Source: Crossaster papposus (taxonomy: Eukaryota; Echinodermata; Asteroidea; Velatida; Solasteridae). From it: a stretch of 64,000 nucleotides of DNA. Positions 3,731-54,640 of this stretch are shown here, one piece after another. Both the position numbers and the translations under genes were made by a program. Within the stretch, counting starts at the first letter, position 1, and each line of letters opens with the position of its first letter. A model generated the notes under the pieces. It had not been told where the DNA came from. It made no database searches and was given only the letters and a program-made list of their open reading frames with translations. The stretch lies in assembly GCA_037893245.1 (NCBI GenBank), contig JBAIAA010000237.1:1426001-1490000 (forward strand). The letters are read 5' to 3'.

Positions 3731-6700
3731 GTTGGTCAATTCAAATATCCAGTTTGTTAGTCTCTCTTTCTTTTCTTTTTTAACAGGTGGGGGGTTGTTT
3801 CATTGTTTTGGGGATTTATGTTTTGGGGTTTTAGACTTTTGGGGTTTTGGGTTTTTTGGTTTTGAGTTTTTTGGTTTTTGAGTTTTGGGTTTTTGGGGTT
3901 TTGAGGTTTTGAGGTTTTGAGGTTTTTGGTTTGTGGGTTTTTTGTTTTGGGGGTTTGGTTTGTGGGATTTGGGTTTTGTTGTGGGGGAATATAGCCTAGT
4001 TTAGGGTTCGTGACTCATCATTCAGAGGGTCAGGGGTTCGAATGTTTTTTCCTTGGGCAAGCCACTTCACCCCATTTGCCTCACTCCACCCGGGAGTATA
4101 AATGGGTACTAACGATATTAACAACTTTTCTTTGTTTGTTTGTTTTGTTTCACAAGCCAGAACCTTGATCTTTTTTTTTTGTCTTTGACAAGGCACGAAT
4201 TAAAACGACAAATATAATTATCTGTTTAGTGAGACTTTTTGGTCAATCCATGTCAAATCACCCTCCCAAAAATAAAATATTAGACCGTGTCCTCTTCAAA
4301 TAAGTTTATGTATTATTAAGTTTATTAAAAAATGTATACCAATATATGTTGGTTTGGGCCAGTAGTTTTACTGGACCAAATCAGGAATTCTTGTTACATG
4401 TATTACATTTCTTCAGGAATGATTCCCCATCCATTGGTTTAGGTAGTTTTGGCCTCAGGGTAGTGGTAGTATGCTTGTTAGTTTTCTTGTGGGCTTCCCT
4501 GTATTTGAAAGAAGAGTAGTTCAGATATAAATTTATTTACAGAAAAAACAGGAAGTGTAACGTTTTGTAATAGTAGTTTAAAAAGTGTTAGCACTTATAT
4601 TATAACCACATGATTTAAAAACCATGTGTTGTAATGTTTATGGGAAATTCCACTGTTCTTTTTTTACACAAAGTTTTTTTTTTTTTTTAAATTAGAGGGA
4701 AAAGGGCCTTGTCATGTCCTCATCAGAATGATTGCAGGAACATCCTGGTTCGACATCCTTTCAATGGTGTGGGAATTCCCACCAATTAGAAATTGTAAAA
4801 TCCTTTTTTGTATGTTGATGACTGCGTTGCATTTTTTTGGTGGGGGGGGGGGGGGGGGTTGGGGTTAGTGGTTGTGATTTTAGGATGGAGATCTGGGGAG
4901 ACAGTTTTCCGTTGGCTATGTACTGGGTTTTTCCCAGGACCAGCAACATTTTTGAGTTTGTTGTACTGGGTTTTTCCCAGAACCAGCAACATTTTAGTTT
5001 GTTTGATTGCTTGAAGTAGTGTAAAGATTTTGGAGTAGTGTAAAGAATTGTTTTGATTGAGTTAAGGCATGGTTGAGGTGACAAGATACATGTACATTGT
5101 GGTTCTTTTATAAACTACATAAGACTCGCATATTTGGTTATAAACCAAACATACTGTAATTCTTGTTGGTGTTAATTCTATTAAGCGTCTCTGGATTTAC
5201 ACTTTTGAAGGACTTAGTTTAAAGAGATCGTATACGTTTGGTATTTGGAACCCACCGTTTGTTTCAATCCTATATAGTTATAGATATATACCATAAAACT
5301 AACCTGTAAAAATTTCATTTCAAAAGATGGTAGCGATTTTGAGATATTGCCGGAATTGAGCGATTATGTCCACGCAGGAAGAATAATCTGCATTGGAATA
5401 CACAGTCTGAGAAACGTCACTGCAGTAACGCTTCTCAGATTCAAATTTTTGGGGATAAAAAGTGATATCTTTTTCCATAACCGCAGTACTTCGAAGTGAA
5501 CAGTTTCTAAAAATGCATTATACTATCCAAAGCTGCTGTACTTCTTACCAAGTAAGTTTTTATTGCCATTAATTTTTGGAGTAATTACCAAACGTATACG
5601 ATCCCTTTGAGTTCCAACTGTATTTCTGTATTTCTATGTTGTAGCACAAAGCTTGATCCAGGGCAAGGCTTTGGACCCTCAATGCCCTAAATTGTGTAGG
5701 GCCTTAAGGCCTTGAGAGTCCAAAGCCTTGGGTCTAAATTTCAACCCAGGAAATTAACCATGGTTGAAATAAGGAGCGTTTGAATAGAATTTGTTACAAT
5801 CCAAAAATTGTGTACACGAAAACGAAAAGATGTCTCCCCAGGAATATAAATTGGCAGATGTGTGACCAGCTCTCATGTTTATACACGGAATTGATTTTCT
5901 TCCTTCCTAATGTCCGTAGCTTCCGTGACAAATTCCGGGCATTCCGTGCACCTGCTCTTACTCGCAATTTATGTGTTCCGAAGTTGTTTTTTTCATGATC
6001 TTCAATCCTTTTCAGCAGTTTCCTTTGAACTACTGCTTTTTGAAAAACGAGACACATATATTTCTGTGTATGTACATGTACGTATATAGAACCACACAAT
6101 GTGTTGTATACCGTGTGTACAAATGTGCAATGATCTGAAATTCGGTACCCTCTGGAGACCTGAACACAATGTGTATAATGGAGACAAAAGGACACTGGAG
6201 GGTAAATTTCTATAGATAAATAGGTAGCCACAGGGAATTTCACGAAGTAGATTTTTGGAGTGTGCCTCAAATTACTCAAAAACTAGGTTTATGATGTGGG
6301 GTAGGGTTAGTGTTTGGGTTAGGGTATGATATAGGGTATATTGGGTCGAAATTTCAACCCAGGAAATTAATTGTGGTTGAAATAGGAGCATTTTGAAAAA
6401 GGTGCCTGACTTTTTAAGCAGTTTGTACACGAGAACAAAGAGATGTCTCCACTAGGATACAAATTTGAGAGTCCATGTACACATATAGCGCAGAGATTTC
6501 TTAGCACTTGATTTCTGGTCCAGCAAAATGCCACCTACATGTATCTATTCAGCTCATCTAAGATGCCTTCCATACCTTGCGGCCGTCGCGTCGCGACCGA
6601 GGCCACGGTAGGCCTACACCGGCCGAATTTGCTCAATCGTCGCTGATCATGTGTCAAATTCATCTAGCTGCCTAGGGTGAATGATACATGTAGGACCTCG

Positions 6701-18121: not shown

Positions 18122-18424
18122 TTGTTGGAACCGACCTTGGTTGGAACCGACCATGGTTGGAACCGACCTTGGTTGGAACCGACCATGGTTGGAACCGACC
18201 GCGGTTGGAACCGACCGCGGTTGGAACCGACCGCGGTTGGAACCGACCGCGGTTGGAACCGACCGCGGTTGGAACCGACCGCGGTTGGAACCGACCGCGG
18301 TTGGAACCGACCGCGGTTGGAACCGACCGCGGTTGGAACCGACCGCGGTTGGAACCGACCGCGGTTGGAACCGACCGCGGTTGGAACCGACCGCGGTTGG
18401 AACCGACCGCGGTTGGAACCGACC
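18122..18424. repeat. 16-bp minisatellite, ~19 units (GGTTGGAACCGACCGC)
   Basis: The array is uninterrupted. The first four units vary at two bases (CCTT or CCAT instead of CCGC) and the remaining units are identical. Because 16 is not a multiple of 3 and the unit lacks stops, every frame on both strands stays open; these frames are not genes. The unit is largely self-complementary (GGTTGGAACC). The array lies 150 bp past the PITPNC1 poly(A) signal. Confidence 0.97.
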
Positions 18425-27609: not shown

Positions 27610-29980
27610 TACTCGACCTTCACAGACCTAAAAAAAATAAAAATAGTGACGAATGGTTGAATTCTCCCCCCCCCCCCCGGCCCTGCCAACTCTTATTGAT
27701 AATTTGGCTGGGGTCACTTTTCTGGCCAAGGACCATTGTCAATGATTGTAGTTCTGCACAAGAAATAAACACAAAACGCCGTTTTTTTAAAGATGGTTGT
27801 ATGATAATTGATATGAATGTTTTATTCTTTTATTTTTAAATGATCTTTCCAAACATCAGTTGGTTCAAAACGCGTCAGTTTTGTAGCCCGAAAATTGTAA
27901 AAGGTCACGCCGCAATTTGAAAAGACCATTAGCCTCTGTCATGACCTTTCTAAAAGGTCAACGCGAGGAAAATTGTCAAAATGGCGGCGCTTACCAACAG
28001 CAACACGTGTGTCGTCGATGTCAGAACTTTATGGCTTACGACGGAGCTCTAAAGGCTGTGGTTATTTCGAGAGGATAAACCGTAGGCATAAGGTTAAATG
28101 TCATCCAAAACCGTAAAATTACGAAAGAGAAAGAAACAGCGACTGAAAAAATGGTCAGTTTGTGAAAGCGTGCTGCGCTATATACGTACGTGCGTAGCTA
28201 GCGGATGTCAGACAAGTCGACCGTTGAGACAACTCGACTCGGGACAAGTCGACCGTTGAGACAACTCGCCCGTTGAGACAACTCGCCCGTTGAGACAACT
28301 CGACCATTGGGAGAGCTATAGCTGTACTTCGACGTTTACATTGTTTATAAACAGTAAATGTTGGGCCGACTTTCCTCATGCAATGTTGCCATACTTCTTT
28401 GTTGACAAACTGCAAATTCATTGTACCTTTACCATGTTAATGTTATTAATGCTTGCTATTTACCCTCTGTTAACAATTTAGGTGTAAGCTTAGTCCGAAA
28501 AAAAAACCAAAACGGTGGCGTCCAGAAATTGTGCACACAACCGAGTGCTCCCTAATTGGTCGTGGCGCAATTGAATAATTCTTGAAAAATTCAAGTTTAA
28601 TATTTACGAACTTCTTTTAATGTCAGGTTTCAGTCAATAAAAGGGTAAAATATTACTAGATTTCACAGGCGTCTGTACATTTAATGTGACAGTATTTAAA
28701 ACTGGTTTTTAAATTAACATTGCAGGATCAGGAATGTTGAGGTTTAACGTCCATATAGTAATTATGTGAACCAAGTGCTTGTGTGTAAAGCCCCAAATTT
28801 ATATTTGATGTCAAAAAATAATTAAAAATACAAAAATAATATTGCTTGTACATGTATCAAGTTGTATGAATTGGCCCCAGAATTTGTTTACTGTATGGCA
28901 TTCAAATATGGCTTTCAAATAAAGCTTCAGTTCAGTGCCACTGAATTTTTTGTTTTGTTTAAATGTTAATTGGGCCTAACCGGTTTTCTAAGGAGCATAA
29001 ATACACGGCGGGTCTTTTCAAGTGCAGGAAAGAAAATCTAGTTTTATGATTGGCCGTTTTTTATTAAGTATTTCCCCGCAATTCACTAACTATCTGTTGT
29101 CTTTCCTCCATGGTATAGCTACTTACGTTAGTCTTACGCGAGAGCTCGGAAGCCATATTGACAAATTTCCGCAAAACGCCCTCTTCGGTTGATTTTCGTC
29201 ATTTCATGACAGAGGCTAATGAGCACACTGCGCGCGTGATCAAGCAAGGGATGGATATATATCGTGCCGTTAATTTAATAGCGGGCGCACTTTCTATCTA
29301 CGGCTAGGCTCTGCCTCCATGGTCACATTTAGTGGTCTCCATTGTATTACATGTAGTACAGTACGCGCACGCGTTTTTAAAGGACACGTGTGACTGGAAA
29401 TACGACTAGTGTACACGGTCCGTTATTATTTCAAACATTTGAAATTAAACGAAATTAAAACAAAAACTACCTAATTTGGAGGAATACATGTAGTTACATG
29501 TATATATAATTTCTAGCTGAGCTAATCGATTTGCATAAGCATTGAAGTGTTTACAAAGCAAGCGCTGACCTCATTCGGCACGCAAGACGCGCGACGGACG
29601 TACGTGTGTAGTACTAGTTTTGTGATAAAAAGCTTACCGGACGGAGAAAGGATGCAAGTCAGGATTAGAACTTTGGCACCTCAGGAATGGAAGCACATAA
29701 TTGGGTACTACTACTAGTCTTCAAGACAATGGCCTCGTCTGGCGCACCAATTGAAGAGGTAACGATGGAGAATGGACATCTGGAAAGATATTGGAGATTG
29801 TGAGTATTGTTTAAAACAAAGTACGGACTACGGAGATGCTGCCTAGCGGTTCCCATCCGGCCCGTGAGGCTGGTACCGGTAAGTAAACAGCTCGGACTCA
29901 TTTCGTTCGCTCTGTGGTATTTTGTTATTTAAAAGAAATAGGCCTTATACAGTGCATGTACACACACAAACATCAAGCAG
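27610..29980. other. Intergenic stretch between H3 and the H2A pseudogene
   Basis: No gene was recognised. A YY1-like CAAAATGGCGGCG at 27978-27990 next to a CpG-containing stretch could be an orphan promoter, but no exon follows that I can identify. A short tandem repeat sits at 28205-28310. The remainder shows no structure I recognise. Confidence 0.5.
28205..28310. repeat. 17-bp tandem repeat (GTTGAGACAACTCGCCC)
   Basis: About five irregular units carry GTTGAGACAACTCG followed by CCC or ACC. The unit shares the ACTCG-CC core with the 16-bp arrays at 41.5-45.9 kb and with a short patch at 54570-54640. Confidence 0.85.
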
Positions 29981-35700: not shown

Positions 35701-36766
35701 CTGTTGGTATTAAAGTACAATTAACAGAACAAATTTGAGTTAATATGCTAATTATTTCCGGGGGAGGGGGGGTGAGTGGGTTCATCGTATTCAATCAGAG
35801 ATAATCTGATCCACGAATGAGATACATGTACACACATTTTCTCTACAGTAGTCAGTCTTTGTATTTTATACTTGACAACGCACTCTTTAGTCCATGCCCG
35901 AATCACATTGCTATGGCTAGTAACAATGCACAAGTCATGGGAATTGACTACAGCTTCTAGCTGGCGGCTTCCATAGGACAGGGCCTTATGTATTTAGATC
36001 AGGAAATGAGAAAACGAGTTATTAACCATGACCATTCAATAAAGGAAGGTGAAAGTGAAGCTGCCTATTCACAAGGCATTTTTCTGTCCATTTTCCTGTC
36101 CACTGCACGTGCAGTGAAATGTGACAGACGGAGGTGGAAATCAACTTAGAGACTACATTTGTACATCAATAAAAGTCCCAAGATACCTTTTCGAGGCTCC
36201 GGTGTCTCTCCTGTAAATCGGCCTTTGGGTCGAGCATCCATAACTTTAAACGTCTCCGCCTCCAAATTTGCCTCGATGTCCGCTAAGGTCTTCATAAGCT
36301 CGGGAACGAAAGAAGGCCTAAATTTGACCGGGTCAACCTCAAGAACAACGTCGGTTGTTTTGTGTCCTTCTTTGATCCAGAGAGGAAGACCACCTTCCAT
36401 GATGGAGACGTTGTTGTGCCCGAATACGCGGAACATCCACCAAATCCGGGGAGCCGAAAACACCCCTACCTTGGCGTTGTTCTCGTACAAAACTACATGG
36501 GTATCGTTGTCGATGCCCAGTTTTCCAACAAATTCTGCGAATTTATCCGGACTGGGAAGGGTATGGGCTAGGTTAGTAGACGCGGAGCATTTTGGGAGGT
36601 CGAAAAACAGGGCCCCCGGGATGTGAGCCTCGAGGTACTCTTTCAAGGGATCTCGTTTGGCCACAGAAAGGTGCCATGACGCGTCAATGATGCGGAGTTT
36701 CTTCGCTTGGGAATTTATCTGCTTGGCAACCCAACTCACAGAGACTAAAGTGGAAACTTTCTGCAT
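35402..36766 (-). CDS. MPST: 3-mercaptopyruvate sulfurtransferase, copy A (two exons)
   Basis: The protein transfers sulfur from 3-mercaptopyruvate to a thiol acceptor through a cysteine persulfide (cysteine catabolism, H2S production; cytosol or mitochondria). Exons 36766-36187 and 35700-35402 join in phase 1 across a 486-bp GT-AG intron and give 292 residues, close to human MPST (297). There are two rhodanese domains, N-terminal inactive (~8-135: DASWHL, HIPGALFFDL, SAPRIWWMFRVFGH, EGGLPLW) and C-terminal catalytic (~155-285). The catalytic Cys246 lies in CGSGISA; CGSG is the MPST loop, whereas thiosulfate sulfurtransferase has CRKG. Arg183 and Arg192 match the substrate-binding arginines. 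An upstream in-frame Met would add 13 residues; the internal Met is chosen because copy B has a stop there. No clear mitochondrial presequence is seen. Confidence 0.96.
36187..36766 (-). CDS. MPST: MPST copy A exon 1
   Basis: The exon runs from Met (MQKVSTLVSV) to PEPRK plus one base. The donor on the minus strand is GTATCTT. It encodes the inactive rhodanese domain, the linker and the start of the catalytic domain. Confidence 0.95.
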
Positions 36767-37064
36767 CTTGATGCTGATGATGGATTTTTTCGAACTGCAA
36801 TGCAAATAGTAACGGTATACTAAACACTTAAATATTGGACAGGAAAGGCTTGTTTGTTTTAATACGCACGATCCAGCTGTCCAGATCTCGATCAGTGTGA
36901 CCCGGCCGTTGGTTCACAATAAAATCCCATGTAATTAATGGAACTCTGTCGGAGCGAACCAGCGGCTGGATTTATGATTGAGATTCGCGTGAACTGTGTG
37001 AAACCATAGACCTGAAGCCGGAGGGGAAAAATCCTACAGAGTTACGTCTATCAGTATGTGAAAC

Positions 37065-39443: not shown

Positions 39444-40495
39444 CTGTTGGTTTTAAGAGTACAATTAACAGGACATATTTGAGTGAATATGCTAATTATT
39501 TCTGGGAAGGGGGGGGGGGGGGGGGGTCATCGTATTCAATCAGAGATAATCTGATCCACAAAAGAGATACATGTACACACATTTTCTCTACAGTAGTCAG
39601 TCTTTGTATTTTATACTTAAACTTGACAACGCACTCTTAATTAGGCCATGTCCGAATCACATTGCTATGACTGGTAACATGCAATGCACAAGTCATTGAA
39701 ATTTACTACAGCTTCCAGCTGGCGGCTTCCCTAGGACAGGGCCTTAAGTATTTAAATCAGGAAATGAGAAAACAAGTTATAAACCATGACCATTCAATGA
39801 AGGAAGTTAAAAGTGAAGCTGTCTTTTTAACAAGGCATTTTTCTGTCCATTTTCCTGTCCACTGCACGTGCAGTGGAATGTGACAGACGGAGGAAGAAAT
39901 TAAGTTCCAAGATACCTTTTCGATGCTCCGGTGTATCTCCTGTGAATCGCCCCTTGGCTCGAGCGTCCATAACTTTAAACGTCTCCGCCTCCAAATTTGC
40001 CTCGATGTCCGCTAAGGTCTTCATAAGCTCGGGAACGAAAGAAGGCCTAAATTTTACTTGGTCAACCTCAAGAACAACGTCGGTTGTTTTGTGTCCTTCC
40101 TTGATCCAGAGAGGAAGACCACCTTCCATGATGGAGACGTTGTTGTGCCCGAATACGCGGAACATCCACCAAATCCGGGGAGCCGAAAACACCCCTAACT
40201 TGGCGTTGTTCTCGTACACAACTACATGGGTATCGTTGTCGATGCCCAGTTTTCCAACAAATTCCGCAAATTTATCCGGACTGGGAAGGGTATGGGCTAG
40301 GTTAGTAGACGCGGAGCATTTTGGGAGGTCGAAAAACAGGGCCCCCGGGATGTGACCCTCGAGGTACTCTTTCAGGGGATCTCGTTTGGCCACGGAGAGG
40401 TGCAACGACGCGTCAATGATGCGGAGTTTCTTCGCTTGGGAATTTATCTGCTTGGCAACCCAACTCACAGAGACTAAAGTGGAAACTTTCTGCAT
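39145..40495 (-). CDS. MPST: 3-mercaptopyruvate sulfurtransferase, copy B (two exons)
   Basis: Tandem duplicate of copy A, with exons 40495-39916 and 39443-39145, the same phase-1 junction and 292 residues. The CGSGISA loop (Cys246), Arg183 and Arg192 are intact. About a dozen residues differ from copy A, including Trp31 to Leu in the DASWHL motif that is conserved in copies A and C and in vertebrate MPST, Pro180 to Ala (DARAKGRF) and Pro191 to His (PEHRK). The upstream 13-residue extension possible in copy A is blocked by a stop. It is intact and probably functional, but it is less conserved than A and C. Confidence 0.95.
39916..40495 (-). CDS. MPST: MPST copy B exon 1
   Basis: 580 nt, the same length as in copy A. 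The donor on the minus strand is GTATCTTGG. The open frame that reads on past the donor is intron. Confidence 0.95.
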
Positions 40496-41475
40496 CTTGA
40501 TGCTGATGATGGATTATTTCGAACTGCAATGCAAATAGTAACGGTATACTAAACACTTAAATAATGGACAGGAAAGGCTTGCTTGTTTTAATGACGCACG
40601 ATCCAGCTGTCCAGATCTCGATCAGTGTGACCCGGCCGTTGGTTCACAATAAAATCCCACGTAATTAATGGAACTCTGCAGTCAGTCCGCAGCGCACGCG
40701 TTAAATAATGCGTCATATCCCGAACTTTATTTAATAGACCTGGAGCCGGAGGTGAAAAAATCCTACAGCTAGTTACGTCTATCAGTATGTGAAACAAACG
40801 GGTCCAAAGTTCCAAGCGAGGTCAAATAACAAAGATCGTATACGATGTTTGTTTAGAACAAATTAGGTCATGCTGCAAATACTGCTTGCTTAGACCATAG
40901 ACCAAGCACTAGGGAGGAAATCGGGGCAGTGTCAATTCTTGTTATCTAATGCATTCTCGCAGTCGGCATGACGTCACCGGGCCCTGTTTCCTGTCTCTGA
41001 TTGGTCATTGGTGGCTGTTAGTTATCACCCCCTCTGGACTCAAAGGGGAATGAGTAGCAATAAATAGTGTTGTGGTCTATGTGAAACAAATCTAAATAAT
41101 TAATTATTGTCTAATATCTATTAAACACTACACCGAAAAATTTCCAAATTTCTTTGTTTTATGAAGTAACAAAATCTCCAACGATACACCGAAAAAAAAA
41201 GTATGCATGTTTTTATTGCTGTAAAAAAAAATAGAAAACACGTAATTCCCTGTACAAATTGAATGGAGGGCTACCCCTTTGCCCGACGGTGTGTGCAATA
41301 GGTGGAACAGCCTCCGACCGTGAGAATTGTGCAAATTCACTCAAACTGTTTATAGCTTCATGCTCGAAACATATGGTCAAACTCAAAGTCAAACGACATT
41401 TGCGCCGCGCCCACCTAGTACCTAGCTATACTTGCAATGTACGCTTCGTATTAATGCACTACATTATCGATTGTA

Positions 41476-42051
41476 GGTCAACTCGCCCCTTACCGACTCG
41501 CCCCTTGACCGACTCGCCCCCTGACCGACTCGCCCCCTGACCGACTCGCCCCCTGACCGACTCGCCCCCTGACCGACTCGCCCCCTGACCGACTCGCCCC
41601 CTGACCGACTCGCCCCCTGACCGACTCGCCCCCTGACCGACTCGCCCCCTGACCGACTCGCCCCCTGACCGACTCGCCCCCTGACCGACTCGCCCCCTGA
41701 CCGACTCGCCCCCTGACCGACTCGCCCCCTGACCGACTCGCCCCCTGACCGACTCGCCCCCTGACCGACTCGCCCCCTGACCGACTCGCCCCCTGACCGA
41801 CTCGCCCCCTGACCGACTCGCCCCCTGACCGACTCGCCCCCTGACCGACTCGCCCCCTGACCGACTCGCCCCCTGACCGACTCGCCCCTGACCGACTCGC
41901 CCCCTGACCGACTCGCCCCCTGACCGACTCGCCCCCTGACCGACTCGCCCCCTGACCGACTCGCCCCCTGACCGACTCGCCCCCTGACCGACTCGCCCCC
42001 TGACCGACTCGCCCCCTGACCGACTCGCCCCCTGACCGACTCGCCCCCTGG
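41476..42051. repeat. 16-bp minisatellite array, ~36 units (ACCGACTCGCCCCCTG)
   Basis: Nearly perfect array. The first two units and one unit near 41881 (15 bp) deviate. A 210-codon open frame on the minus strand (repeating ESVRGRVGQGASRSGG) exists only because 16 bp without stops reads through in all frames; it is not a gene. Confidence 0.97.
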
Positions 42052-43290
42052 TTTGATTTACATGTATTTTTAATTCTATAATTTGTATCATTTATCCCTT
42101 GTAGAACTTAACAACTGAAAAGACGATGTGGGTAAACTTTTTCCTTGATTATTCTCTTGCATAGGCCATAATCTCGATTATTTTTATCTAAGTTTTAGAA
42201 AATACCTTTTGATGTTCGTTTCGGTGGTGGAAATTAAAGACAAAGCAGTAGGCCTAAATCCTCGAATCCAAAAAAGTTAAGCTCATAACAATTTATCTAT
42301 ACATTTATATATTTAAAGAAAATTGGGGGGGGGGGGGGGAAATAATCATGTTTGGTTCTTGTTTTTATGAGGGTTTTTTCGGAGCGCGGGGGGACAAGTT
42401 GATCACATAATTTGATGCGATTTTGTTTACTCGGCTTTCCAACCCAATAGGGCTTTTCAAGGAAGCTATAGGGAATCTGTCAATCACTCCACCATTCTTT
42501 GTTACGAAAACCAACGCTCTTAATGAGGGATTGAACTGGGTGTTACGACGCTCATCTACAAAACTGTCGGCTCCCTCTGATCAGTCCGCCAAACGTGGTG
42601 AAAGATGGTGAAAAACCCAGATCAAAGAGCTGACAGTGAATACAATAAAGTCGCTAATTTGACCAATGAGGTTGCTACTTTTGGAGAAGGGGGGACTGTT
42701 TTTGGTATTTTGTATGTCCAATGGTGTTAAATGTGATTTTCACATTTTATAAGACGTTTGGTATGTCGTGTTAGACCTGAGAATATTTAGAACATAAAAA
42801 GCACAAACTTTTTAAAGACACATCCATAAACCGTTTTTATGCATGCTTTAGGGTGGGTTTTTGCGGGGCACGCGAACGATTTGCGAAGGATGCGAATGCC
42901 AAAAAAATGGCAAAGTCACATTCGTATTTTTAAGTTTCCAAAAGTTTGCAAAACATGCGCGGGGGTTCGGAATCGTCGTCATTTATTGTTCGCGGGAGTC
43001 CAGTCTAGTTCATCACATTGTAGATTTCTCCTTAATTATAATATTTGAATCATTTCTTTGTATGCCTAATGTAAATAAATTGTACACAACTTGAGGAAGA
43101 ATATTATTAGAAAGTTGTCCATTTCCATTGATTTCTTGGAAGTCGCATTATTGCAGCCTATTTTTTGCTTCCTCTGATCAGTCCGCAAAATGTCTAAGTT
43201 GAGAGTTCGTTTTTATTCCTTAAAATGACGAATTTTATGGTAACGAATATACATAATGTACATCGATCGTACAAGGTCCATAAATCAAAC

Positions 43291-43434
43291 GAGGGAGGCG
43301 AGTCGGTCAGGGGGCGAGTCGGTCAGGAGGCGAGTCGGTCAGGGGGCGAGTTAGTAAGGGGCGAGTCGGTCAGGGGGCGAGTCGGTAAGGGGCGAGTAGG
43401 TAAGGGGCGAGTCGGTCAGGGGGCGAGTTGACCT
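43291..43434. repeat. Inverted 16-bp repeat array (GAGTCGGTCAGGGGGC)
   Basis: About nine units in reverse orientation to the array at 41476, more diverged (units with TAAGGG or AGGAGG). It forms the right terminus of the foldback element. Confidence 0.92.
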
Positions 43435-43478
43435 ACAATCACGCACACATGTACAGTACGTACGTGCAAAGGGTTTCA

Positions 43479-43622
43479 GGTCAACTCGGTCCGTGACCAA
43501 CTCGGTCCGTGACCAACTCGGTCCGAGTCAACTCGGTCCGTCACCGACTCGGTCCGTCACCGACTCGGTCCGTGACCAACTCGGTCCGTGACCAACTCGG
43601 TCCGTGACCAGCTCGGTCCCTA
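43479..43622. repeat. Related 16-bp array (CTCGGTCCGTGACCAA)
   Basis: About nine units, starting after CAGGTCAACTCGG, which echoes the start of the ACCGACTCGCCC foldback terminus. It may be the end of a second foldback family. The copy at 45798-45941 is identical by segmental duplication. Confidence 0.9.
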
Positions 43623-43735
43623 TGGGAGATTGTACACAAAAAGGTTGCATTTCCTTGTAACTGGCGATCTCGAGCGCGTGTTTTTGTACTTGAGATTTTC
43701 GTAGGTACGCACTTAAAAGTTTCTGTTGCCTCAAT

Positions 43736-43958
43736 TTCTAGGCAGCATGTAGTCTTGGTCAAGACCAAGCTAGCCTGTTCATTTGTTCTGCGCGCGGCGC
43801 GCCGTCCGTATTATTGAGGGCGCCCTTAATTATCGCCAGAAGAGATCCAGGAATCTGGCGATAATTAAGGGCGCCCTCAATAAAACGGACGGCGCGCCGC
43901 GCGCAGAACAAATGAACAGGCTAGCTTGGTCTTGACCAAGACTACATGCTGCCTAGAA
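43736..43958. repeat. 223-bp near-perfect hairpin
   Basis: Arms of about 105 bp from TTCTAGGCAGCATGTAGTC to GACTACATGCTGCCTAGAA, with one mismatch noted, around a 13-base loop AGAGATCCAGGAA. The arms contain GCGCGCGGCGCGCCGTCCG. The right arm ends where the next 16-bp array starts. Confidence 0.93.
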
Positions 43959-44369
43959 CTCGCCCCCTGACCGACTCGCCCCCTGACCGACTCGCCCCCT
44001 GACCGACTCGCCCCCTGACCGACTCGCCCCCTGACCGACTCGCCCCCTGACCGACTCGCCCCCTGACCGACTCGCCCCCTGACCGACTCGCCCCCTGACC
44101 GACTCGCCCCCTGACCGACTCGCCCCCTGACCGACTCGCCCCCTGACCGACTCGCCCCCTGACCGACTCGCCCCCTGACCGACTCGCCCCCTGACCGACT
44201 CGCCCCCTGACCGACTCGCCCCCTGACCGACTCGCCCCCTGACCGACTCGCCCCCTGACCGACTCGCCCCCTGACCGACTCGCCCCCTGACCGACTCGCC
44301 CCCTGACCGACTCGCCCCCTGACCGACTCGCCCCCTGACCGACTCGCCCCCTGACCGACTCGCCCCCTG
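43959..44369. repeat. 16-bp minisatellite array, ~25 units (second copy)
   Basis: Same unit as at 41476. All units appear identical. It forms the start of the second 2,319-bp unit. Confidence 0.97.
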
Positions 44370-46054
44370 GTTTGATTTACATGTATTTTTAATTCTATAA
44401 TTTGTATCATTTATCCCTTGTAGAACTTAACAACTGAAAAGACGATGTGGGTAAACTTTTTCCTTGATTATTCTCTTGCATAGGCCATAATCTCGATTAT
44501 TTTTATCTAAGTTTTAGAAAATACCTTTTGATGTTCGTTTCGGTGGTGGAAATTAAAGACAAAGCAGTAGGCCTAAATCCTCGAATCCAAAAAAGTTAAG
44601 CTCATAACAATTTATCTATACATTTATATATTTAAAGAAAATTGGGGGGGGGGGGGGGAAATAATCATGTTTGGTTCTTGTTTTTATGAGGGTTTTTTCG
44701 GAGCGCGGGGGGACAAGTTGATCACATAATTTGATGCGATTTTGTTTACTCGGCTTTCCAACCCAATAGGGCTTTTCAAGGAAGCTATAGGGAATCTGTC
44801 AATCACTCCACCATTCTTTGTTACGAAAACCAACGCTCTTAATGAGGGATTGAACTGGGTGTTACGACGCTCATCTACAAAACTGTCGGCTCCCTCTGAT
44901 CAGTCCGCCAAACGTGGTGAAAGATGGTGAAAAACCCAGATCAAAGAGCTGACAGTGAATACAATAAAGTCGCTAATTTGACCAATGAGGTTGCTACTTT
45001 TGGAGAAGGGGGGACTGTTTTTGGTATTTTGTATGTCCAATGGTGTTAAATGTGATTTTCACATTTTATAAGACGTTTGGTATGTCGTGTTAGACCTGAG
45101 AATATTTAGAACATAAAAAGCACAAACTTTTTAAAGACACATCCATAAACCGTTTTTATGCATGCTTTAGGGTGGGTTTTTGCGGGGCACGCGAACGATT
45201 TGCGAAGGATGCGAATGCCAAAAAAATGGCAAAGTCACATTCGTATTTTTAAGTTTCCAAAAGTTTGCAAAACATGCGCGGGGGTTCGGAATCGTCGTCA
45301 TTTATTGTTCGCGGGAGTCCAGTCTAGTTCATCACATTGTAGATTTCTCCTTAATTATAATATTTGAATCATTTCTTTGTATGCCTAATGTAAATAAATT
45401 GTACACAACTTGAGGAAGAATATTATTAGAAAGTTGTCCATTTCCATTGATTTCTTGGAAGTCGCATTATTGCAGCCTATTTTTTGCTTCCTCTGATCAG
45501 TCCGCAAAATGTCTAAGTTGAGAGTTCGTTTTTATTCCTTAAAATGACGAATTTTATGGTAACGAATATACATAATGTACATCGATCGTACAAGGTCCAT
45601 AAATCAAACGAGGGAGGCGAGTCGGTCAGGGGGCGAGTCGGTCAGGAGGCGAGTCGGTCAGGGGGCGAGTTAGTAAGGGGCGAGTCGGTCAGGGGGCGAG
45701 TCGGTAAGGGGCGAGTAGGTAAGGGGCGAGTCGGTCAGGGGGCGAGTTGACCTACAATCACGCACACATGTACAGTACGTACGTGCAAAGGGTTTCAGGT
45801 CAACTCGGTCCGTGACCAACTCGGTCCGTGACCAACTCGGTCCGAGTCAACTCGGTCCGTCACCGACTCGGTCCGTCACCGACTCGGTCCGTGACCAACT
45901 CGGTCCGTGACCAACTCGGTCCGTGACCAGCTCGGTCCCTATGGGAGATTGTACACAAAAAGGTTGCATTTCCTTGTAACTGGCGATCTCGAGCGCGTGT
46001 TTTTGTACTTGAGATTTTCGTAGGTACGCACTTAAAAGTTTCTGTTGCCTCAAT

Positions 46055-46236
46055 TTCTAGGCAGCATGTAGTCTTGGTCAAGACCAAGCTAGCCTGTTCA
46101 TTTGTTCTGCGCGCGGCGCGCCGTCCGTATTATTGAGGGCGCCCTTAATTATCGCCAGAAGAGATCCAGGAATCTGGCGATAATTAAGGGCGCCCTCAAT
46201 AAAACGGACGGCGCGCCGCGCGCAGAACAAATGAAC
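46055..46236. repeat. Truncated second copy of the 223-bp hairpin
   Basis: The left arm and loop are complete. The right arm stops at GAACAAATGAAC, where similarity to unit 1 ends. TAGTCTTGACCAAGACTA at 46684 resembles the lost arm end, as if the element at 46248-46680 had inserted there. Confidence 0.85.
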
Positions 46237-49389: not shown

Positions 49390-52300
49390 CTGTGGGTTTG
49401 AAAAATACAGTTTGAAAGGACATACATGTACATTATATGCAAATTATTTTGTGGGTGGAAAATAAAAACCTTCAAGTACATGTAGTAACATTTCAATTCT
49501 CGCAACAGTAGCCTATCTGACAAAATTAACGATCATGTAATGTATAGTGTCTTATATACCGCTACAACCTACATTTACATAATAAATTCCCTTCAAAACC
49601 CCTCAAATCTCATCTAACATTATTGATTTATAGTTCCAAGAAACAATCGATTTTCACGCCATGTTTGTGCGTTAAATCCACAGTGAAAGTCAGTGGTCAA
49701 GGTCGTCAACAGAAGCGCGACGGCAATGAAGAGGCTTAATTATATTGACCGTACTGTATTAACATGACCGACTTGCTGCAGGTTTGGTCAAGGTTAGTTT
49801 ACCATAGTTCGACCATGGTTCGATTAAATCTGGTCGAACTCACGCTAGTCGACGAATAGACTATAGTCGACCATTCGCAACTAACCTGCCGCGGTTGGTC
49901 GCGCTGGTTACCAATAGCAAAAGTTTGATGGCACGGTGCACTGAGCCGGGACCAACTCACTATCACTCCATACAAAATTAGCAGACAACGAAACTTTTCC
50001 GTGCAATATGTTTTCCACGTTTATATTGTGTAATTCTGTCACTTTATTCACCATGGTACGATAAGTTTTCCTAAACTATACGCAATAACTACCACGGTGT
50101 AAATAAACATAAACATGAATATGAATATCGTGTTGAAATATTGTTTTGCCGGTGTGAGTAGATGTTTTTGTGCGCCACAAAAGAGTTCGAGTCGTGACGC
50201 TGCAGAAACAACCCAAAAACCATTTGTCCGGCCGTGATCAAACTTGCTCATGGTTGCAGATAAAGGCCACTATAGAATGAAAACTACTGGACCGACTCGG
50301 GTGACCTAGATATCGTTTTCATTTTAAAAAGTTCCTTGTCTATTTGAAGAATACTTAAACTATAAATGGGCCGTTTTGGGACAATGTATGAACAGTTATT
50401 ATGTTGGACGATACCATTTACAAACAGGGGTACGGTGTATGCGGCACCTCCCAGACTGATACATCATTTCATTTTGTGCATACAAAAACACCTCATGCGC
50501 ATTGACAGATTTCCCTAATATTTTTAATACACAATTGATAATCAATATAAATATAATTTACAATGTATAGCTAGGGCTGGCGAATTTTTTTTGTTTCGTA
50601 TAGTCGATTTTTGTTCCCCGCGATATCGCCGATATGGCGATAAAATCGGCAAAAAATTAAGGCATGAAACAAAATTTGTCGCCAAAGTCCTGACGCTCAA
50701 ACAGCTTTCGAACACCCCCCAAAGCTTTCTGTAAGTACCGCCATGGTCGTCCATCAAACACGTTGCGGCGTACGTACCCCCCCCCCCCCCCCCCCCCCCC
50801 ACCTCCCCGAGATATGGCGATAAAATCGGCAAAAAATTAAGGCATGGAAAAAATTTTGCGAAAGCTACGCTCAAACAGCTTTCGAACACCGCCAAAATTA
50901 AACCGCCATGAACGTCCATCAAACACGTACAATGCTGCGTACGTAACCCCCCCCCCCCCCCCCCCCCCCCCCGCTATATCCCCGAAATTGGCCAAAAATT
51001 AAGGCATGAAAAATTGTCGCCAAAGGTACGCTCAAACAGAATACCTCCATGATCGGCCATCAAACGTTGTCTTTTTTCATTTTTTCTTTCCTACGTGCGC
51101 GAACTGGTAATAAAGCAACCATCCGAGTTATCAAACTTTGTCAGCAAACGGTCATAGCACTTTCAGGCAAGTATCGCCGAATTTCTTAAAGGAAAATAAA
51201 ATGCGAATCACGAAAAAATCGTCGATTTAAAAAACGATATTGGCTATAGGCCTATTTATATGCCAATTTTGTTAATGTATTAAAATGTATCGTCTAGCGT
51301 TCATTTTATAACACTTTGGAAACACCCGAACTTTTCATGTGTTTGGTGAGTAATTAACACTGTTTTCAGGCGTGATTTTCAACCGAATTTTTCATCACAT
51401 CAGGGAGTACAATGTACATTGACGAATCCTACAAAACCATACAATACTTCAGAAAAATAAGTTCAACATTTTGCAGAATAAGCAATAACTCAAATAAGAC
51501 AGTTCCCCTAACAAATCGGAAAATAACTTAAACACGGAGAGAGCGTGATTATAAAGACCTTCTTGGACTGGAGCTGCACAGCGTTCTATGCCACGCCTTA
51601 TGTACCAGATCACATGGCAGCCTAGGACTGGTAAGAGAGATGCCAGGGGGCGGATCCATGATTTTCCAAAGAGGGGGCGTGCCTCTTTTGTTTCCTTCTT
51701 ATTTTGAGTCTGTCGAAAAAGATCTTTTAGTTTCTTTTTTTCTTTTAAAAGAAAAGGGGGGATGTACCCCCCCCCCCCCCCCCCCCCCCCCCGCCTCCTA
51801 GATCTGTTCCTGAATGCTGCCCATCCGCCCATCTATTTGTATCTGTTGTATTGTGCAGTAATGTGACAGACACAGGCGGAAATTAACTTGGTCGAGACAG
51901 CTTGAGAATTCTAGGCCTAAAAGTTCACGACATGGAGAATCTCCCCCATGTCCTGGGCTTTTATTTTAGGGCTGGAATTCTCAAGCTAGTAGGAGACTAT
52001 AGTCTAAAGATACCTTTTCGAGGATCTGGCATCTCTCCTGTAAATTGCCCCTTTGGTCGAGCATCCATCACTTTGAAAGTCTTCGCCTCTAAATTTATCT
52101 CGATGTCTGCAAAGCTCTTGAAAAGCCCGGGAACGAAAGAAGGCCTAAATTTGACTGGGTCAACTTCTGGAACAACGTCGGTTGTTTTGTGTCCTTCTTT
52201 GATCCAGAGAGGAAGACCACCTTCCATGATGGAGACTTTGTTGTGCCCGTATACCCGGAACAACCACCACACCCGGGGAGCCGACAGCACGCCCAACTTG

Positions 52301-52596
52301 GCGTTATTCTCGTACAGAACTACATGGGTGTCGTTGTCGATGCCCAGTTTCCCAACAAATTCTGCGAATTCTTCCTGACTGGGGAGGACGTGGGCTCGGC
52401 TAGAAGTAGACGACGAGCATTTTGGGAGGTCGAAAAACAGGGCCCCGGAGATATGGGCCTCGCGGTACTCTTTCAGTGGATCTCGTTTGGCCACGGGCAG
52501 GTGCCACGATGCATCGATAATGCGGAGATTCTTTGCTTGGGAATTAATCTGCTCGGAAACCCAACTCACGGAGACCAAAGTGGAAAATTTGTGCAT
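49091..52596 (-). CDS. MPST: 3-mercaptopyruvate sulfurtransferase, copy C (two exons)
   Basis: The older paralogue in the cluster. Exons 52596-52014 and 49389-49091 join in the same phase-1 position across a 2.6-kb intron and give 293 residues (one extra residue in the SSSTSSRAH loop). DASWHL, the SAPRVWW segment, Arg in KGQF/PDPRKG and the catalytic CGSGIAA (Cys247) are present. The KGRF arginine of copies A and B is Gln here (ARPKGQFTG), which changes a residue equivalent to a substrate-binding Arg of mammalian MPST. It starts MHKFSTLVSV. No clear targeting peptide is seen. Confidence 0.94.
50629..51065. repeat. ~170-bp tandem repeat, three units ending in C runs
   Basis: Each unit has ATATGGCGATAAAATCGGC (worn in unit 3), AAAAATTAAGGCATG, ACGCTCAAACAG and CATCAAACACGT-like parts. 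Units 1 and 2 finish with C24 (50777-50800) and C26 (50947-50972) runs directly after GTAC or GTAA. Confidence 0.85.
51899..51986. mobile_element. ~88-bp inverted-repeat element
   Basis: AGCTTGAGAATTCTAGGCCT and its inverse (GGGCTGGAATTCTCAAGCT, one gap) enclose ~45 bp with a small inner stem (GGAGAATC/CCCCCATG region). It lies next to the donor of MPST copy C exon 1. Confidence 0.7.
52014..52596 (-). CDS. MPST: MPST copy C exon 1
   Basis: 583 nt. The donor on the minus strand is GTATCTTTAG after PDPRK plus one base. The reading frame stops 5 codons into the intron. Confidence 0.94.
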
Positions 52597-52842
52597 CTTG
52601 ACGGGTTATTTATTTATTTCGACTTTCGGCTCAGATAGATATGATTACATGTACTTGAATTTTTACTTGAACAAAGCTGACAGTAATAGTGGCTGGATGG
52701 ACAATGTACAACGTCCACTTTCAACTAAAAGCTAGAACTAAAGTTAGTACATGTACTGTGTATGCGCGCTCTAGCGCTACTGTAAATGTATACGGTGCAT
52801 GCAGCTGATGCAGTGATGCATTTAATAAAACCGGGCGCGCCC

Positions 52843-54569: not shown

Positions 54570-54640
54570 AAGTCGGCCCCAAGTTGAGACAACTCGGCCC
54601 AAAGTTGAGACAAGTCGAGACAACTCGACCGTCAAGACAA
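54570..54640. repeat. Short patch of TTGAGACAACTCG repeats
   Basis: Three to four irregular units (AAGTTGAGACAACTCGGCCC) are related to the 17-bp repeat at 28205. Confidence 0.7.

Follow-up and report, generated by a model that had tools for sequence, protein, structure and literature searches.

An atypical foldback element in Crossaster papposus, most likely a recombined member of an abundant cut-and-paste family

Introduction

The window analysed here is a stretch of 64,000 nucleotides from the sea star Crossaster papposus (assembly GCA_037893245.1, contig JBAIAA010000237.1, positions 1,426,001 to 1,490,000), in which a long and very uniform array of a 16-bp repeat faces a short, less uniform array of the same repeat in inverse orientation. 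The questions raised by this locus are what kind of structure it is, what might have moved it and how its two ends came to be so unequal. An earlier reading of the sequence (the original prediction) saw a relative of the sea-urchin TU and Drosophila FB elements; the TU elements have inverted ends of about 15-bp tandem repeats and 8-bp target duplications. The classic TU elements were described before transposases could be assigned.

Results and discussion

Layout of the window copy

Tandem Repeats Finder (TRF) gave 35.8 copies of the 16-mer on the left (41481–42050, 98% match) and 8.7 reverse-complement copies on the right (43292–43428, 86%), separated by about 1.24 kb, in good agreement with the roughly 36 direct and 9 inverted units across about 1.2 kb that had been predicted. 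The sequence GATTGTAGGTCAACTCG at 41469–41485 has its exact reverse complement at 43424–43440, so the predicted 17-base end and its inverse are both exact, the right end lying at 43440 and not at 43441. The family to which the element belongs is called FB-A, its two types of tip T and G, and a related family FB-B. The features of the locus, in positions of the window, are as follows.

41469–41485, plus strand: T-type tip GATTGTA and core GGTCAACTCG, in place of the expected G-type tip
41481–42050, plus strand: expanded array of 36 units, 32 of them identical (ACTCGCCCCCTGACCG), with an inner boundary, CTGGTTTGATTTACATG, of the G-arm type
42050–43291, minus strand: non-coding middle domain, within the part that aligns to copy L043
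43292–43428, minus strand: T arm of about nine units in conserved order, from TRF and unit typing
43424–43440, minus strand: true T-type tip of the minus-strand element, matching the inverse of GATTGTAGGTCAACTCG exactly
43472–43741, plus strand: left end of an FB-B element, with tip GGTTTCA, core, and an array of CAACTCGGTCCGTGAC at 43482–43619
43736–43958, no strand: near-perfect palindrome at the junction of a tandem duplication; the second copy lacks the final 40 bp, which start at 43918
43958–44369, plus strand: second expanded array, 26 units, without a tip
44369–45610, minus strand: second middle domain, identical to the first
45611–45759, minus strand: second T arm and T tip (tip at 45743–45759)
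45791–46236, plus strand: second FB-B end and incomplete palindrome, to the end of the duplication

Aligned in reverse orientation, the window copy matched the canonical copy L043 at 94.9%, over a stretch bounded by the right tip and the inner units of the left array of the window copy. Its orientation is minus, and each arm is a long inverted repeat of the other. Two features, a tandem duplication with an offset of 2319 bp and the related array family starting at 43472, are additional to the original prediction.

The window also holds a clean 16-bp array at 18124–18424 (GTTGGAACCGACCGCG, 18.8 copies, 98%), which has no inverted partner among the TRF repeats of the window and is apparently unrelated to FB-A. 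Three similar minus-strand open reading frames (36146–36913, 39827–40513 and 51997–52605) resemble mercaptopyruvate/thiosulfate sulfurtransferase and presumably form a local gene cluster.

A dispersed family with two different tips

A genome search for the ends, which the original prediction had proposed, was run over the 1.02-Gb assembly. The assembly also gave a bindin match (PF02084, 119.8 bits, above the cut-off), where 14 control genomes gave none; bindin is not known from outside the echinoderms, and the match agrees with the echinoderm host. The T-tip 19-mer gave 416 matches with at most one mismatch and the G-tip 19-mer 317, the control patterns (reversed in the case of the T tip) giving none in either case. 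With 416 T-tip matches against zero for the control, the FB-A ends are not a product of chance.

The usual FB-A element is about 1.6 kb long and consists of a tip, the core, about ten units of 15–16 bp, a non-coding middle and then the inverse of the same arrangement. The outer 7 bp differ between the two ends, GATTGTA (T) or GGTGTCA (G) preceding the common core GGTCAACTCG. Elements running from a T to a G tip were present in 14 of the 20 loci taken around T tips (19 loci of 8 kb, and L048 of 2.3 kb, to the contig end). All fetched loci together yielded 18 distinct complete FB-A sequences of 197 to 4910 bp, ten of them at 1.5–1.67 kb; this count omits the window copy, for which an FB-A tip had been falsely paired with an FB-B tip. 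Perfect 8-bp target duplications, sought across loci as had also been proposed, flanked 15 of the 18, or 13 of 16 when counted by site with the shared sites (L045/L046 and L040/L061) taken once, and were absent from the T/G copies L008, L043 and L049. FB-A is thus a foldback family in structure, with inverted ends of tandem repeats, dispersed copies and target duplications of fixed length, and in this the original prediction of a foldback-type transposable element with ends built of short repeats was right.

It was less fortunate in taking the exact 17-base inverse for the end structure, as usual copies bear two different 7-bp tips. Among the matches listed (the first 100 T and first 100 G places, 70 of these 200 tips being unpaired), 63 of the 65 tip pairs were T/G, one was G/G (C35) and the single T/T pair was the window copy itself.

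That the two arrays might be independent loci had been named as one of the findings that would overturn the prediction. Two unrelated minisatellites facing each other by chance would account for the difference in uniformity between the arrays, and for nothing else; they are ruled out as an explanation by the co-occurrence of common tips, both arms, middle and target duplications at many loci in the genome, and the probability left to chance is negligible.

Some loci (L040 and L061; L045 and L046; L060 with L020 and L062) have the same flanks on different contigs or at different places and differ in length or in nested insertions. As their flanks are shared, they are alleles or segmental duplicates. 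On C279 (3440147–3573673) FB-A tips recur five times in a fixed pattern, in steps of about 26–35 kb and with 35 bp between the starts of T and G tip, which suggests a large segmental tandem array. No description of FB-A was found in open-licence papers, which were searched without the FB-A sequence or the species name.

Origin of the odd left end

As the window copy aligns to the canonical element in reverse, its left arm is expected to carry a G tip. The arm does have a G-type inner boundary, yet it ends in a T tip. When tip and inner type were compared over all readable arms, 42 were concordant and one, the left arm of the window copy, was discordant (a further 22 arms were untypable on one or both sides). 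The flanks of the window copy, ACATTATC and ACGCACAC, are mismatched and the target duplication is absent. A crossover between the forward arrays of two copies explains the mismatch of tip and arm, the T/T pair and the absent target duplication together, and is the most likely origin of the left end, the mechanism and the order of events being those that we infer. The absent target duplication alone is no proof of a crossover, because L008, L043 and L049 also have no perfect one. A precedent exists in the nematode genus Meloidogyne, where one Tm1 element bears identical terminal motifs and lacks a target duplication, and a crossover was proposed (PMC3169594).

The double T tip might instead have arisen within one element, whose two arms would have undergone gene conversion or template switching with each other. 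The arms, as long inverted repeats of each other, would offer the substrate, and the G/G pair at C35 shows that a doubled tip has a counterpart elsewhere. A conversion confined to the element would, however, have kept the 8-bp flanks, and those of the window copy differ. Homogenisation of arms within copies was also looked for and not seen: arms of the same copy had a mean likeness of 0.785 (n = 16), and T and G arms of different copies 0.764 (n = 236), in a comparison that skipped L011 and L049 and whose mean includes poorly cut arms such as those of L042. We therefore regard conversion within the element as rather unlikely and retain the crossover between copies.

Unit order and array expansion

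The units of FB-A arrays are of several types in a preferred order. The commonest pattern, read from tip to middle, is a-b-c-a-a-e-a-f-g-a in T arms and a-b-d-a-a-e-a-f-g-a in G arms, with losses and gains in both, the two kinds of arm differing chiefly in their third unit and their inner edge. A start with a-b was seen in 14 of the 35 T arms and 14 of the 20 G arms that were parsed. In third place, 19 of these T arms and one of the G arms have c, and d stands there in 13 of the G arms and in none of the T arms. The right arm of the window copy keeps the family order and, because this order is conserved in the arrays of the family, it is to be seen as ancestral-like. The contrast of a clean and a worn array drawn in the original prediction was therefore mistaken: the less uniform arm is not a decayed array.

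The left arm consists almost purely of unit a (32 units, with a longest identical run of 23), and the view that it is a derived expansion has been borne out. Expanded arrays occur at other loci on both types of arm, and expansion is therefore a recurrent secondary event. In L003, L004, L006 and L008 the tip-proximal a-b-d is kept and a run of a lies towards the middle, and the G-tip array of L002 has at least 108 units. From position 1507 that array comprises 61 units of type a and then about 45 of type f, continuing past the edge of the locus, and is satellite-like. The prediction that the element is much longer than its relatives does not hold for the family, in which arms usually have about ten units and only some copies are expanded.

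The order of the units could perhaps be a functional code, in which ordered transposase binding sites confer polarity on the element. Families A, B and C (see below) would then each possess a unit and a transposase of their own, array and enzyme having co-evolved. This is a speculative proposal and we think it doubtful; if it were true, a uniform expansion of unit a would mark copies that have lost the code and are turning into satellite DNA.

Tandem duplication and palindrome

Positions 42050–43917 and 44369–46236 are the same over 1868 bp without a difference, and the locus is therefore a tandem duplication with an offset of 2319 bp. The duplicated segment starts at the inner edge of the left array. 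At the junction stands the palindrome at 43736–43958, which matches itself at 94% over its whole length, centre included. Only the first copy has the 40 bp that complete it, and there the sequence runs straight on into an array unit; the incomplete second palindrome occupies 46055–46236. By its form this junction looks like the scar of a fold-back template switch.

Long identical arrays are hard to assemble and the duplicate copies are identical over 1868 bp, so that array expansion and 2.3-kb duplication might both be artefacts of assembly. Against this, the two copies of the array are unlike in length (36 and 26 units) and in interruptions, a specific palindrome marks the junction, and other loci have expanded arrays too. 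An artefact is thus improbable, and expansion and duplication are treated here as real.

Sister families and the candidate transposase

FB-B has tips GGGTGCC and GGTTTCA and unit CAACTCGGTCCGTGAC, and one of its ends lies in the window from 43472. Its two types of tip occur 33 times each in the genome; 40 of these 66 tips form 20 pairs within 8 kb, and all 20 are asymmetric. One FB-B copy (L063) is 6.3 kb long with the 8-bp duplication ATTCAGAA on both sides. Nested in it is a member of a third family, FB-C (unit CCAACTCGGCACCTTG), flanked on both sides by GATGTCTT; its tips, GAATGTC and GGTATCC, are from this one copy, in which the right core deviates at a single base. The tips of FB-A, FB-B and, from the single copy, FB-C are all 7 bp long and asymmetric. 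Two short TRF arrays in the window (28210–28309 and 54573–54617), with units AGACAACTCGACCGTTG and TCGGCCCAAAGTTGAGACAAC that have ACAACTCG in common, are possibly further, decayed foldback families.

The FB-B copy in L063 contains an open exon (positions 4824–5204 of the locus), for which the best Pfam match was DUF2135, at an E value of 0.22 that is not significant. A search of the genome with this exon gave 128 matches, some in open reading frames of up to 652 aa. The best 7 of the 128, at 93–100% identity, are without exception no more than 3 kb away from FB-B arrays, where 0.03 would be expected. Of the 79 MULE domains, 32 have an exon match no farther than 800 bp away, where 0.016 would be expected. 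In C258, C217 and C263, FLYWCH, MULE and exon match follow one another in open reading frames of 493 aa each. FLYWCH itself matched at 22 places. In a comparison with 25 of the 79 MULE matches, 10 of these places had a MULE match no more than 2.5 kb away, and so most MULE matches show no FLYWCH. From this sequence evidence FB-B looks as though it carries the C-terminal part of a FLYWCH–MULE transposase of the Phantom type of Mutator. No MULE (catalytic) or FLYWCH domain was seen inside any FB-B copy.

In C90, C171, C916 and C1179 a MULE match in an open reading frame of 240 aa stands 4–8 kb away from an FB-B tip, the relative orientation being the same in all four; these matches are on the strand opposite to that expected from L063, were left out of the evidence, and perhaps belong to one duplicated block or to larger elements. 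A fifth such match (C510) has no listed FB-B tip.

For FB-A the co-location test covered 39 distinct arrays (of 65 matches), as compared with 40 FB-B arrays (of 76 matches), and 113 of the 200 listed tips, the C279 cluster and most paired G tips being left out. Exon matches within 3 kb of FB-A arrays numbered 2 of 128 (C1542 and C1097; 0.03 expected). The one in C1542 sits between FB-A arrays facing each other. Both are weak, at 38% and 41% identity and E values of 9e-9 and 9e-5. Around the 113 tips no exon match came within 3 kb; within 8 kb there were two, where 0.23 would be expected, and one of them, at C87, is an FB-B exon. On these two co-located matches the link to a Mutator transposase appears weaker for FB-A than for FB-B.

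No autonomous FB-A element was found among the copies read. The long copies (L060, and L020 with L062) were considered for this role, and no transposase was recognised by eye among their open reading frames; each seems to contain another nested element. The inserts in L042 and L049 are unrelated to each other, and no gene was recognised in them by eye.

Proposed mechanism

Taken together, the results are best read as follows, with a probability of roughly 0.8: the window copy is a non-autonomous cut-and-paste foldback of the Mutator superfamily (MULE, Phantom-like), with one end derived from a crossover and with an expanded and duplicated array. On this reading family A would be moved by a MULE transposase that is encoded elsewhere, binds to the 16-bp repeat units of both ends and cleaves the DNA at the asymmetric 7-bp tips, with the 8-bp target duplications as the outcome. 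A crossover of forward-facing arrays would then have made the left end T-type, removing the original G tip and the target duplication. Unequal exchange or slippage may have multiplied a single unit type until there were 36 copies and, after the crossover, a 2.3-kb tandem duplication would have copied most of the expanded element. A role for repeated units in binding has a parallel in Galileo, in which, according to PMC4079207, tandem repeats within the ends hold extra transposase binding sites, more of which may raise transposition.

The assignment to Mutator has support from structure, in that FB-A has a target duplication within the 8–10 bp of this type and short, non-inverted terminal motifs as in Tm1. 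The 8-bp length is also typical of P and hAT elements, and the family might accordingly be a foldback of another superfamily that makes 8-bp duplications, whether P-type like Galileo, hAT or the mover of TU. FB-like ends can indeed be those of P elements, as Galileo demonstrates (PMC3169594), and none of the 39 arrays and 113 tips of FB-A that were tested has a MULE domain match within 8 kb. On the other hand, the sister family FB-B has closely similar tips and carries the MULE-type C-terminal exon, two matches to this exon lie beside FB-A arrays, and the asymmetric 7-bp tips parallel those of Tm1 (PMC3169594). Another superfamily seems distinctly unlikely on this balance, and a Mutator-type mover is preferred.

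Comparison with known systems

A close likeness is that to Tm1, which encodes a Phantom-type FLYWCH and MULE transposase and has many non-autonomous copies. Like FB-A it has asymmetric 7-bp motifs inside the target duplication, a short common motif and a variable number of tandem units. The units are 13–15 bp long in Tm1 and 15–16 bp in FB-A, where there are usually about ten per arm and at the maximum at least 108. Target duplications are commonest at 9 bp in Tm1 and are 8 bp in FB-A. FB-A is set apart from Tm1 (PMC3169594) by its conserved order of unit types, its echinoderm host and the lack of an autonomous copy among those read.

The MULEs of Aedes aegypti are similar in having 8–9-bp target duplications and long TIRs composed of a short terminal motif and subterminal repeats, and they include hundreds of non-autonomous derivatives with mixed middles. 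Muta1, a type 2 foldback, has a transposase that works in yeast. Subterminal repeats are present in nine copies, of 12 bp in Muta1 and 15 bp in Muta5. Unlike FB-A, Muta1 has a terminal motif described as an imperfect palindrome and a demonstrated transposase (PMC5225508).

Two foldbacks of Drosophila can also be compared. Tetris of D. virilis likewise has TIR tandem repeats of varying number, for which unequal crossing over may be responsible, and seeds satellite arrays, but its repeats are of 220 bp (a size taken from the name TIR-220); its superfamily was suggested from target duplications and other foldbacks and not from a transposase (PMC4079207). Galileo shares with FB-A the long FB-like TIRs, which in Galileo have multiple transposase binding sites, and differs from the reading given here for FB-A in its P-superfamily transposase (PMC3688188).

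Where the original prediction had named TU and FB, the evidence points to Mutator/Phantom-type foldbacks such as Tm1 and Muta1 as the nearest in kind to FB-A. The window copy itself is most likely a non-coding, atypical and recombined member of an abundant cut-and-paste family; it seems to be spliced from two other copies and has a swollen end, and this pattern is already described for foldbacks in other animals. FB-A would extend the Mutator/Phantom type of foldback to an echinoderm. The presence in one genome of several sister families with different 16-bp units provides a data set for the divergence of transposase binding sites, and FB-A, FB-B and FB-C also bear on recombination between foldback ends and on the seeding of satellites by transposon ends. 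TU, by its description, resembles FB-A in its echinoderm host, its inverted ends of short repeats and its 8-bp duplications, and FB-A makes the membership of TU in the same superfamily testable.
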